Shown: positions 42,159 to 45,726 of the stretch, in pieces | How the letters are laid out: each line of letters begins with the position of its first letter | Numbering within the stretch: position 1 is the first letter of the stretch | NCBI GenBank assembly: GCA_024280855.1 | Contig: JAJRPG010000085.1 | Coordinates: 1 to 47,189 of the forward strand | Origin: Planctomycetota bacterium | GTDB lineage: Bacteria > Planctomycetota > Phycisphaerae > UBA1845 | Direction of reading: 5' to 3' | Length of the DNA: 47,189 nucleotides | Program-made: the position numbers and the translations under genes | Notes under the pieces: generated by a model | The model's input: the letters and a program-made list of their open reading frames with translations, nothing else | Told to the model about the DNA's origin: nothing | Databases searched by the model: none

Positions 42159-42217
42159 TTCGATAGTTTTTGACAGAAGCGTTTTGTTTATTTGAGATTT
42201 GTAAGAGGTTTGGCACT

Positions 42218-42916
42218 ATGCGACATCGTATTCACTTTAGAAAACTTAATCGAACCTCAGAGCATCGCAAAGCTATGCTTCGTAACATGGCTCAGAGTCT
42301 CATAGAGCATGGCCAAATTACGACGACGATTGCCAAAGCTAAGACCTTGCAGCCAATCTTTGAGCAGTTGGTCACGGTAGCTATCAAAGTGCGTAAGTTA
42401 GCTGCGGCTTCGGATAAAGCTGGTTCACTTAGGATGAGGCGTAAGTTGCATCAGGAGCTAAGCGACCGGAGCATTATCCCTGCGGAGCATCAGCTTGACT
42501 ACGATGCGATGTCAGACGCACAGCGCTCGCGTACATTGCGCATGGCGAGTGGCCGTCGATACCGTACTGGCGAACCCAAGGGCCGATTGCTATTTACGGG
42601 TGAGTCTGTTACGCATCGTTTAATTGAAACTATCGCACCTAAATACGAATCTCGCACGGGTGGCTATACCCGTATCATTCGTTTGGCCAAGCATCGGATT
42701 GGTGATGCGACTCAGCTCGCAATCGTTCAGCTTGTCGGCAACGAAGAGGCTCCGACTTCCTTGACAAAGCAGGCTCCGACTGCGCGTCGTCGCCGCATAA
42801 ATTCTCGATACGCGGCAGCGATTAAAGCTGCGAAGAGTTGGGGTAAATCTGCTCCTGCTAAGTCCGCACCAGCGAAGGAAGCCCCGGCTGATGATAGCGC
42901 AAACGAAGGCTCGTAA
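42218..42916 (+). CDS. rplQ: 50S ribosomal protein L17 (expanded)
   Basis: A 232-residue protein near the tunnel exit, much longer than the usual 120-130. The family core is MRHRIHFRKLNRTSEHRKAM, then LRNMAQSLIEHGQITTTIAK. The second core half (RTGGYTRIIRLAKHRIGDA) comes after an insert of about 45 residues (rich in Arg, near DKAGSLRMRRKLHQELSDRS). The end is an Ala/Lys/Pro-rich tail with APAK repeats. The ATG at 42218 has AAGAGG upstream. Confidence 0.95.
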   Translation: MRHRIHFRKLNRTSEHRKAMLRNMAQSLIEHGQITTTIAKAKTLQPIFEQLVTVAIKVRKLAAASDKAGSLRMRRKLHQELSDRSIIPAEHQLDYDAMSDAQRSRTLRMASGRRYRTGEPKGRLLFTGESVTHRLIETIAPKYESRTGGYTRIIRLAKHRIGDATQLAIVQLVGNEEAPTSLTKQAPTARRRRINSRYAAAIKAAKSWGKSAPAKSAPAKEAPADDSANEGS

Positions 42917-43517: not shown

Positions 43518-44783
43518 TTATAAGAAAATAGTTATCAGGCCTAGGCTAACCGCACCAAGCGCGACCGTAGCTAGGAAGCCCGCTTGAATGGTTCGGCTGC
43601 CTACGCTGACTAAGTGACGAAGGCAAACTTCTAACCCAATCGCAGCCATGGCTAGGGTGAGTAGGGCTTTGCCAATGTCAGAGAAGGTGTTTTGCAAGGA
43701 AACATCTAACCCGCCAGGGGCTGAGACTAAAGAACTGCCCGGCTCGAAATGCAGCGTGGGTAATAGGCCCATCGTGTTGAGTATGGCTAATGCCATAAAA
43801 CCCCAGACGAACCAAGGGACAAGTCGCGTGTATCGAACTGTGAACGCTTTGCCAGACGTGTCTGATGATTGATGATGCTTGGCGTAGACGATAGCTAGGA
43901 TGCAGACGAGTGGTGCGAGCATGGTCACGCGCACGAGCTTGACCAGCGTGGCTAACGTCCCAGCTTCGGAGCTGAATGCAAAGCCAGCGGCTACTACTTG
44001 TGGTACGGCGTGGATTGACGTGCCAGACCAGACGCCGAAAGCCTGGTCGCTGATGCCAAGGGCTGTGCCAATCAGTGGCCAAGCTAGCATAGCTAATAAG
44101 CCAAACAAATTTATCGCGCCAATCGAGAGAACCAGGTCGTCCTCCTCGGCTTCGATGAGTGGGGCGACGGCGACGATGGCGCTGTTTCCACAAATGCCTG
44201 TGCCCGCGCCTAATAGGAGTGAGGTTTTCCAATTAAGTTTTAGTAGTTTGCCAATATAAAACGCGGCGCCAATAGCGAATAAAATGCACAGTACCGTCAC
44301 AATGAGTACGGGAAATCCGATAGCTGCGATGTTGTATAGATTTAGCTTGGCCCCCGTGAACACAATGGCTATAGGAATGATTTTTTTGATTATGTGTTTG
44401 CAGCCAACTTTCACGGATTCTGGTAGTGCTAGAACATTGCGAAAAAGCAGGCCCACCAGGATGGCGATGATTGTCGCACTGATGGGATGGCGCAACCCGC
44501 CGTCGCTTTCTACTGAAAAAGGGGCTAGGGGAAGTTTGTGGATTAGATAACTAAGTAGCGTAACCCCCGCAGCTAATATATAGCCCGGTGCTAACCGAGG
44601 GATAGCCGGGGCTGCGGGTATGGGAATCGCTGGAGCGGAGGCGGCTACGACGGGTTCATAGACGCCTTCCATAGAGCCGAGTGACAAGAAGGCGTCAGCA
44701 CTAAGTGATTCGGCGAAGGCCGTGCTTGGCACATCGCGCGTACTCGCCTGCGTGGCGGAAGCTCGAGGGGCTTGGGAGGTCAT
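43518..44783 (-). CDS. Putative sulfur-oxyanion exporter, YeiH/TauZ (UPF0324) family
   Basis: A 421-residue membrane protein with about ten helices. It is recognised by HPISATIIAILVGLLFRNVL, GCKHIIKKIIPIAIVFTGAK, LLLGAGTGICGNSAIVAVAP and FGVWSGTSIHAVPQVVAAGF, the core of the UPF0324 family (putative sulfate exporters; TauZ has been proposed to export sulfite or sulfate from taurine breakdown). It has an unusual Ala/Pro-rich N-terminal extension of about 65 residues. Its start lies 2 nt after the cysteine dioxygenase stop, so the two are almost certainly cotranscribed. The pairing suggests it exports sulfite or sulfate made from cysteine. Confidence 0.85.
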   Translation of the reverse strand: MTSQAPRASATQASTRDVPSTAFAESLSADAFLSLGSMEGVYEPVVAASAPAIPIPAAPAIPRLAPGYILAAGVTLLSYLIHKLPLAPFSVESDGGLRHPISATIIAILVGLLFRNVLALPESVKVGCKHIIKKIIPIAIVFTGAKLNLYNIAAIGFPVLIVTVLCILFAIGAAFYIGKLLKLNWKTSLLLGAGTGICGNSAIVAVAPLIEAEEDDLVLSIGAINLFGLLAMLAWPLIGTALGISDQAFGVWSGTSIHAVPQVVAAGFAFSSEAGTLATLVKLVRVTMLAPLVCILAIVYAKHHQSSDTSGKAFTVRYTRLVPWFVWGFMALAILNTMGLLPTLHFEPGSSLVSAPGGLDVSLQNTFSDIGKALLTLAMAAIGLEVCLRHLVSVGSRTIQAGFLATVALGAVSLGLITIFL

Positions 44784-44785
44784 GG

Positions 44786-45337
44786 CTAAATACCACTCCC
44801 ATAAGCGTGCTGAAGAACTTCTGGTCGATATTCGCCAATGCCCACGCCGGTTAGTGAATAAGTATCCATTCTAAGAAGTGGGGGGGAATAAATGTGCAGG
44901 GTGATTAAATCTTGTCCGGTTGGTTGAAGGTTGGACACTTGATGAATGTCGGTATCTTGCGATACGCTTACCTCGCTTGCGTTGCGATCAAAGGATGAGA
45001 CGGCTTTAATCTGCCCGCAAGGGGTGTGTCCAAATACTGTTTCCGTAGCGATGCCCTGCAGTACGCGCAGTCCACAGGTCGAATGTGCATGGTTGTGGAT
45101 AGGGCTACGCTGACCACTTCGCCAACAGAGAACCAGTGCGTGGTAAAATTCGCCCGCGCACATCAGGTTTCGCAAATAGCGGTCTTCGCTAAAACGGGCA
45201 TATTCCCGGACATCGTCGGAGGAAATGTCGAGCGCGAGAAGTTTATCTTGTAAGTCGTTGACAGTTGCGCGCTGCGTAAGATTGTCTAAGTAATCGATTA
45301 GCGACTGCAGGCTTGAATTGGCAATCCGTGTTGTCAT
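44786..45337 (-). CDS. Cysteine dioxygenase type I
   Basis: A 183-residue non-heme iron enzyme of the cupin fold that oxidises cysteine to cysteine sulfinate. The iron ligands are His81, His83 (HNHAH) and His132 (DIHQVSN). Cys88 lies seven residues after the first His, where mammalian enzymes have Cys93, and Tyr150 (LHIYSPP) matches Tyr157, so the Cys-Tyr cofactor could form; many bacterial homologues have Gly at the first site. Arg56 (RNL) matches the carboxylate-binding Arg60. The start at 45337 has AGGA upstream and is preferred over an in-frame one at 45394. It is the promoter-proximal gene of a pair with the exporter. Confidence 0.9.
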   Translation of the reverse strand: MTTRIANSSLQSLIDYLDNLTQRATVNDLQDKLLALDISSDDVREYARFSEDRYLRNLMCAGEFYHALVLCWRSGQRSPIHNHAHSTCGLRVLQGIATETVFGHTPCGQIKAVSSFDRNASEVSVSQDTDIHQVSNLQPTGQDLITLHIYSPPLLRMDTYSLTGVGIGEYRPEVLQHAYGSGI

Positions 45338-45453
45338 TTGTATTCCTAGGCGTAGTCCGTTACGCCGCGACGTAATTCTGTTCAACCTAAGCACATTATC
45401 GGCGGATACGGGTGGACAGCCCTACCAAGCCACGAATCAACCTAACCGCCTGC

Positions 45454-45482: not shown

Positions 45483-45557
45483 GTTTGAGGCGGCGAAGGC
45501 AATTCATTGCTTTATCGTCCGATAATATTTTAATGTGAGAATACAATGGGGTGGCAT

Positions 45558-45577
45558 GGGTAAGCTACAGCTTACCC
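45558..45577. repeat. REP-like palindrome A
   Basis: GGGTAAGCT (45558-45566) and AGCTTACCC (45569-45577) form a perfect 9-bp inverted repeat with 2 nt between. It is preceded by GGGGTGGCAT. It belongs with elements B and C in the same intergenic region. Confidence 0.65.
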
Positions 45578-45645
45578 GTGGGACGTTCGTATAGTCGTGG
45601 TGAGGCGAGTAATGCTAGATTCGTGGGCTTTACGGCATAAGACAC

Positions 45646-45665
45646 GGGCAAGCTGTAGCTTGTCC
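45646..45665. repeat. REP-like palindrome B, inverted
   Basis: GGGCAAGCT (45646-45654) and AGCTTGTCC (45657-45665) form a 9-bp stem with one G-T pair. It is followed by ATGCCACAC, the reverse complement of the tag that precedes element A. A and B are therefore in opposite orientation, as in paired REP elements. Confidence 0.6.
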
Positions 45666-45726
45666 ATGCCACACGTCCGAAGCTAGTGTTATTTATGATC
45701 CGACACGCCCACATGCTCGCGCCTAG

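Follow-up and report, generated by a model that had tools for sequence, protein, structure and literature searches.

The window, by which we mean the whole analysed stretch of 47,189 nt, is located on contig 110 of a 4.56 Mb planctomycetal draft genome (G000) that is 96% complete. Two genes on its minus strand encode a cysteine dioxygenase (CDO) and a membrane transporter of the PF03601 family, the transporter gene being situated 2 nt downstream of the CDO gene (Table 1). The CDO gene starts with an ATG at 45337 and ends with the stop codon at 44788-44786, with an alternative frame opening at a GTG at 45394, and the transporter gene extends from an ATG at 44783 to a stop codon ending at 43518. 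This is the arrangement given in the preliminary description, which had placed a CDO and an exporter reading frame 2 nt apart at 43518-45337; both frames are confirmed on the minus strand and exceed their Pfam cut-offs.

Upstream of the CDO gene, a glycosyltransferase gene (45910 on) is encoded on the opposite strand. The intergenic stretch between both contains a 30-nt inverted repeat (45551-45580 / 45643-45672) with 90% complementarity. In a promoter/terminator scan for one promoter type, no promoter-like site was detected ahead of the CDO gene; the single site found, with 2.2 expected, is located elsewhere. Downstream of the transporter gene and convergent to it, a HIT-family gene and a gene for ribosomal protein L17 (Pfam) are situated, beyond which apparent rpoA, rpsD, and rpsK genes were recognised by eye. 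The L17 frame (42170-42916, plus strand) encodes 248 aa, and its match to the Pfam model of 97 positions stretches from residue 36 to 189; therefore, this L17 contains an insertion of considerable size, followed by a long tail at the C-terminus.

Table 1. Features of the CDO-transporter locus (window coordinates).
Feature	Position	Strand	Basis
CDO, cysteine dioxygenase type I, 183 aa	44786..45337	-	PF05995, PDB matches, conserved residues
PF03601 (putative sulfate exporter, PSE) membrane transporter, 421 aa	43518..44783	-	PF03601
CDO motif PIHNHAHSTC	45074..45103	-	alignment to human CDO1 fragment; coordinates from residues 79-88
Transporter N-terminal "SMEG tail" LSxDAFxSLGSMEGxYxPxV	44643..44708	-	ahead of membrane domain

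The first gene product is assigned to the CDO family with 73.1 bits against PF05995 (cut-off 23), and its closest PDB matches carry the name cysteine dioxygenase type 1 (E 3.7e-17). In the alignment to human CDO1, residues Y58, R60, H86, H88, C93, H140, H155, and Y157 (human numbering) are all kept, and S153 is replaced by T. We take H86, H88, and H140 to be the iron histidines of the human enzyme, R60 the substrate arginine, and C93-Y157 the thioether cofactor pair; the PIHNHAHSTC motif spans the positions of H86, H88, and C93. Judged by these residues, the window CDO is a complete type I CDO.

The transporter reaches 247.4 bits against PF03601 (cut-off 24.5) and 147.3 bits against the NCBIfam model TIGR00698 (YeiH), which is below the curated cut-off of 232.6, compared to 568 bits for E. 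coli YeiH. Scores below this cut-off were also obtained for the four other CDO-paired transporters scanned, i.e., 185 bits for G317 of family f62, 155 for G497, 113 for G325, and 119 for L005. The sequence thus classifies as a divergent PF03601 (PSE) protein that is neither YeiH nor TauZ in the strict sense. TauZ is a putative PF03601-type exporter of sulfonate-degrading Proteobacteria. The earlier label of a YeiH/TauZ-type exporter holds with respect to membership in PF03601, but not with respect to the strict YeiH subfamily. At E <= 0.001, PF03601 was the only Pfam family matched, without a match to the Ssu1 family, which is not known to belong to PF03601, or to PF01925 (TauE/SafE), and a PDB sequence search gave no match up to E 1. 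A LysR-type regulator gene is absent beside the transporter gene, whose neighbours are the CDO and the HIT-family genes. Simple hydropathy analysis indicated seven strong peaks. PF03601 is described as a member of the CPA/AT transporter clan with 9 or 11 modelled transmembrane helices, two reentrant helices, and the N-terminus inside (PMC8396727). AlphaFold2 models of both proteins, each built with five sequences, were poor (mean pLDDT of 42.5 for the transporter and 50.6 for the CDO) and were not used.

Conservation and repeated assembly of the gene pair

Among 298 genomes of the class, 62 contain a PF03601 match, 61 a PF05995 match, and 32 both, with adjacency read by eye from match tables. 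For the family of the window (f1, 28 genomes), both genes were found in 21 genomes, only the CDO gene in one, only the transporter gene in none, and neither in six (Fisher p 1.9e-5, kinship ignored). The pair is adjacent in 20 of the 21 f1 genomes, 19 times in the same direction and once convergent (G502); in G635 both genes are unlinked. Adjacency was likewise observed in four out of six genomes from other families of the order (G497, G638, G644, and G647, but not G575 and G599) and in one out of five from the remaining class (the convergent pair of G325, but not G588, G627, G633, and G636). This adds up to 25 of the 32 genomes with both genes, comprising 23 same-direction and two convergent pairs; pairs were seen again in the fetched loci. 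With 20 of 21 f1 genomes, the adjacency of CDO and transporter genes is far beyond chance. The possibility that both genes are rarely adjacent in other genomes, on which the preliminary description had made its reading depend, does not hold within the lineage, nor for five of 12 genomes of family f62 (see below).

The relatives L002 to L005, which are MAGs assigned to the Phycisphaerae, Phycisphaerales, and Planctomycetota, encode CDOs with 83, 79, 60, and 59% identity, and in all four the transporter gene follows on the same strand. L002, L003, and L004 were taken as G559, G571, and G453 and hence counted once, so that L005 is an additional example. Except for G551 and L005, where a close start is missing, the nearest usable transporter start of the same-direction f1-type pairs ranges from a short overlap to 32 nt past the CDO stop codon. 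The transporter-adjacent CDO gene of G551 (C201:1705-2160, minus strand) carries an in-frame TAG inside the match, so that a broken gene or an assembly error is possible.

Frame clustering of 26 contexts from 25 genomes, with up to four frames on each side, yielded 24 members each for CDO and transporter, the CDO of G507 being present but left out by the overlap rule, and at most three members for every other neighbour family. A glycosyltransferase neighbour is common to the near relatives G000, G559, and G571, which belong to one genus. Since only CDO and transporter are widely shared among the contexts, the pair has been kept together while its surroundings were replaced. Within the lineage, both genes form a genuine and conserved unit.

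A wider sample of 392 genomes of the phylum gave a different picture: 143 contain CDO, 77 PF03601, and 24 both, compared to approximately 28 expected (p 0.29, kinship ignored), and a general link between CDO and PF03601 across the phylum was rejected. Six of the 24 genomes carry the genes adjacent to each other; four of these belong to family f62, and the other two are G000 and G325. When 26 genomes of f62 were searched, 12 showed a PF03601 match (11 above the cut-off), five of them with an adjacent CDO gene, four in the same direction and one divergent (G659). In the CDO tree, the f62-type CDO forms a distinct subfamily, and G497, although a member of the order of the window, possesses both an f62-type CDO and an f62-type transporter. 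In the transporter tree, the f1-type, the f62-type (including G497), and the G325 proteins fall into different strongly supported groups; the G325 CDO is closer to the f1 type and its transporter represents a third PF03601 lineage. The label "adjacent" changes at least five times on strong branches of this tree, as gains or losses. Both trees were built from selected loci and not from all matches. The one for CDO comprises 80 sequences in addition to the fragment of human CDO1, and the one for the transporter comprises 47, leaving out the second PF03601 gene of G444. A C-terminal GxGI motif of the CDO was considered as a mark of pairing and rejected, since it also occurs in CDOs without an adjacent transporter.

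Outside the phylum, six plasmid PF03601 loci (out of 597 matching records) were viewed and contained no CDO within approximately 4 kb by annotation or CDO profile, and two Vibrio CDO loci (out of 15 plasmid CDO-matching records) contained no PF03601 within approximately 6 kb by profile. A LysR gene is situated beside PF03601 in four of the six plasmid loci and at E. coli yeiH.

A conserved tail motif of the transporter

In 24 of 25 f1-type transporters, i.e., all except L005, the motif LSxDAFxSLGSMEGxYxPIVE occurs in the tail that precedes the membrane domain, and in G512, G551, G614, and G623 it is doubled in tandem. None of the 22 other PF03601 sequences examined carries it. In a profile search of 24 genomes, the motif matched the transporter in all 13 genomes with the f1 type; apart from these, nothing but two weak matches in G626 (E 0.16 and 0.41) was obtained at E <= 1. 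For the window genome, the transporter (G000:C110:44643-44708) was the sole match at this threshold. The transporters of G635 and G502, whose genes are unlinked and convergent, respectively, to the CDO gene, retain the tail. A requirement of the tail for pairing was rejected due to the CDO-paired transporters of f62, G497, G325, and L005, which occur without the motif.

Obvious ideas for what this tail may do are that it docks a soluble partner or that it regulates the transporter. As a more specific idea, which we consider rather doubtful, the tail would act as a cytoplasmic dock that holds CDO or the aminotransferase of the next step at the mouth of the transporter in an enzyme-transporter complex. 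If this were true, sulfite would be made and expelled at one spot, by a complex dedicated to a toxic intermediate.

Sulfite-related genes in the place of the transporter

The flanks of CDO genes were examined in 173 of 191 CDO-bearing genomes, usually over 1.5-2.2 kb per side and less at contig ends; the 18 genomes left out mostly contain the weakest matches, and some second CDO copies were left out as well. In G635, the only f1 genome with CDO and transporter genes apart, a sulfite oxidase homologue (PF00174 and Mo-co_dimer) is located next to the CDO gene on the same strand, its frame opening 64 nt past the CDO stop codon. The best PDB match of this protein is sulfite oxidase 2a9d (E 1.1e-69), and its start, which looks twin-arginine-like by eye, suggests export. 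A PF00174 and Mo-co_dimer homologue also follows the CDO gene in the same direction in G555, a genome with no PF03601 match. Neither protein comes close to the cut-offs that NCBIfam sets for SorA, SorT, and SoxC, so that the name sulfite oxidase is based on Pfam and, in the case of G635, additionally on the PDB match. In G342, equally with no PF03601 match, a TauE/SafE-family frame adjoins the CDO gene in convergent orientation. Taken alone, this last adjacency could be due to chance (p ~0.035), the estimates for sulfite oxidase and TauE genes beside CDO being rough and assuming 4000 genes with 0.5 and 2 copies, respectively; every one of the 28 f1 genomes and of 14 control genomes contains PF01925 (TauE).

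According to the profiles, neither a sulfite oxidase nor a TauE gene is located beside any other examined CDO gene of the 173 genomes, and most examined CDOs outside the pair are adjoined by none of PF03601, sulfite oxidase, or TauE. The sulfite-related genes found at the position of the transporter point to sulfite as the compound that needs removal. In G393 (L080 1-1356, minus strand), a PF13454 FAD-NAD(P)-binding frame occupies the position of the transporter; it has the same orientation as the CDO frame and opens at a distance of 4 nt from it.

With respect to the remaining pathway, the window genome contains 13 PF00155 aminotransferase matches, the best of which are most similar to aspartate transaminase models and stay below the equivalog cut-offs. 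No match was found in this genome for the PF00282 decarboxylase of the taurine route or for the sulfite oxidase family PF00174; because the draft is 96% complete, these absences are provisional. PF00282 exceeds the cut-off in only three of 28 f1 genomes, and the taurine route was dismissed as unsupported in the window genome. PF00174 proteins occur in eight of the 21 f1 genomes with both pair genes. Furthermore, one frame of the window genome has two sulfite/nitrite reductase domain matches and two TauE-family matches were detected; TauE-family proteins offer another exit for sulfite. Sulfite/nitrite reductase domains (PF01077) are present in 25 of 28 f1 genomes, among them all 22 that carry CDO. 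Three of the six f1 genomes without the pair (G440, G522, and G632) also lack PF01077.

Proposed function, alternatives, and related systems

We propose, with a probability of roughly 0.7, that the two genes constitute a unit for the disposal of sulfite arising from cysteine breakdown. As indicated by its family and conserved catalytic residues, CDO would oxidise L-cysteine with O2 to cysteine sulfinate, which an aspartate aminotransferase-type enzyme encoded elsewhere would convert to sulfinylpyruvate and thereby to pyruvate and sulfite. The PF03601 transporter would then expel sulfite from the cytoplasm, so that surplus cysteine would be burnt without poisoning the cell. A route from CDO and AspC to sulfite is stated in PMC12763843. 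Several observations count against this proposal, namely, that the aminotransferase is not encoded in the pair, the lack of co-occurrence across the phylum, the many CDO genes outside the pair with no sulfite-related neighbour, the wide occurrence of TauE-family and PF01077 proteins in f1, the missed YeiH cut-off, and the missing LysR neighbour. The cysteine-overflow or detoxification role suggested in the preliminary description is partly supported, by the adjacency kept in the lineage and by sulfite as the favoured substrate, but neither strict YeiH membership nor a phylum-wide link can be claimed for it. Sulfite is favoured over sulfate, considering the three substitutions in the CDO neighbourhood and the sulfite resistance conferred by Salmonella YeiH.

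Export of sulfate after intracellular oxidation of sulfite would match the family name "putative sulfate exporter" in NCBIfam as well as what had earlier been proposed for Pse and SuyZ (PMC5373536, PMC11582611), and sulfate is possible in the eight f1 genomes with PF00174. We nevertheless regard it as unlikely, since the window genome shows no match to PF00174, the one sulfite-oxidising route searched, a sulfite oxidase homologue replaces the transporter beside CDO in G635 and G555, and yeiH of Salmonella protects against sulfite (PMC12880088). Export of cysteine sulfinate itself would render a third enzyme needless and would thus fit a two-gene unit. The scarcity of PF00282 in f1 and its lack in the window genome stand against this cargo and against hypotaurine, taurine, or cysteate derived from it, and sulfite is what the sulfite oxidase and TauE-family genes in the place of the transporter point to, which makes such export improbable, too.

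CDO homologues with other substrates exist, e.g., a mercaptosuccinate dioxygenase (PMC5373536), and the unit might be a catabolic pathway for another thiol such as 3-mercaptopropionate or mercaptosuccinate. This is very unlikely, since the window CDO retains Arg60, Tyr58, Cys93, and Tyr157 of the human enzyme and finds its best PDB matches among type 1 CDOs, and since no catabolic gene family recurs next to the pair. That CDO and transporter genes owe their adjacency to inheritance alone and have no joint action, as a single inheritance within one family and the phylum-wide lack of enrichment would allow, is hardly credible given that flanking genes turn over on both sides while the pair stays, that separate pairings exist in distinct transporter and CDO groups, and that convergent (G325, G502) and divergent (G659) adjacency is found as well.

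Sulfite disposal by the pair can be compared to several known systems. Deletion of yeiH renders Salmonella highly sensitive to sulfite, and the yeiH promoter answers sulfite via YeiE, while transport itself is not demonstrated by the authors in the available sections of that report (PMC12880088). YeiH of Salmonella and E. coli, with its regulator YeiE, shares PF03601 membership and the link to sulfite with the window transporter (PMC12880088). The window transporter differs in its TIGR00698 score (147 versus 568 bits), the lack of a LysR neighbour, a longer N-terminal tail, and its CDO partner. SuyZ-type putative sulfate exporters of sulfonate-degrading Proteobacteria are similarly PF03601-type proteins, and the pathway they are tied to has sulfite as its end product (PMC11582611), with sulfonates instead of CDO as the sulfite source; the same publication argues that sulfite is a likelier cargo of SuyZ than sulfate, and extends this to YeiH. 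A PF03601 protein encoded on a Paracoccus plasmid scores 131 bits against TIGR00698, which is also below the cut-off, and its locus appears to be linked to sulfonates, as read from its neighbours. On the Acidovorax carolinensis plasmid pACP4.2 (L259, 2816-8161), genes for a LysR regulator, a YeiH-family protein (382 bits, cut-off 232.6), a YncE-family protein, the sulfite dehydrogenase SorA (641 bits, cut-off 600), and a c-type cytochrome are arranged with the YeiH-family gene two genes ahead of SorA; by these assignments, the locus is a sulfite oxidation cluster that includes a PF03601 gene.

The same division of labour is described for CDO1 and SSU1 of dermatophytes and for CDG1 and SSU1 under Zcf2 in Candida albicans, where CDO makes sulfite and a membrane pump expels it (PMC10652793, PMC13170222). 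The fungal systems differ from the pair in that these sources describe co-regulation for the Candida genes and a use of sulfite in keratin breakdown for the dermatophytes. In a feather-degrading Streptomyces, CDO and TauE are up-regulated in feather medium and sulfite production and export were proposed (PMC7181669); here, TauE belongs to PF01925, and co-expression rather than a gene pair is described. A different study on Streptomyces questions whether sulfite plays a major part (PMC12763843). For Bordetella pertussis, a table on putative cysteine starvation contains two CDO genes and a YeiH gene with negative fold changes and separate locus numbers, one of the CDO genes with p 0.08 (PMC9976334).

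The principle of CDO combined with a sulfite pump is known from fungi. No description of a CDO-PF03601 gene pair was found in the open-licence literature, and it appears to be new that bacteria pair these two genes, that the pair was assembled repeatedly, that sulfite-related genes can take the position of the transporter, and that the transporter carries the tail motif. Whether sulfate or sulfite is the cargo of PF03601 proteins such as YeiH, SuyZ, and Pse is unsettled across the available parts of PMC12880088, PMC11582611, and PMC5373536. A pair in which the transporter is sometimes swapped for a sulfite oxidase or TauE provides an argument from natural genetics for sulfite, and it offers a compact test system with CDO as the sulfite source and the transporter as the exit. 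The pair would be a bacterial counterpart of fungal CDO1 and SSU1.
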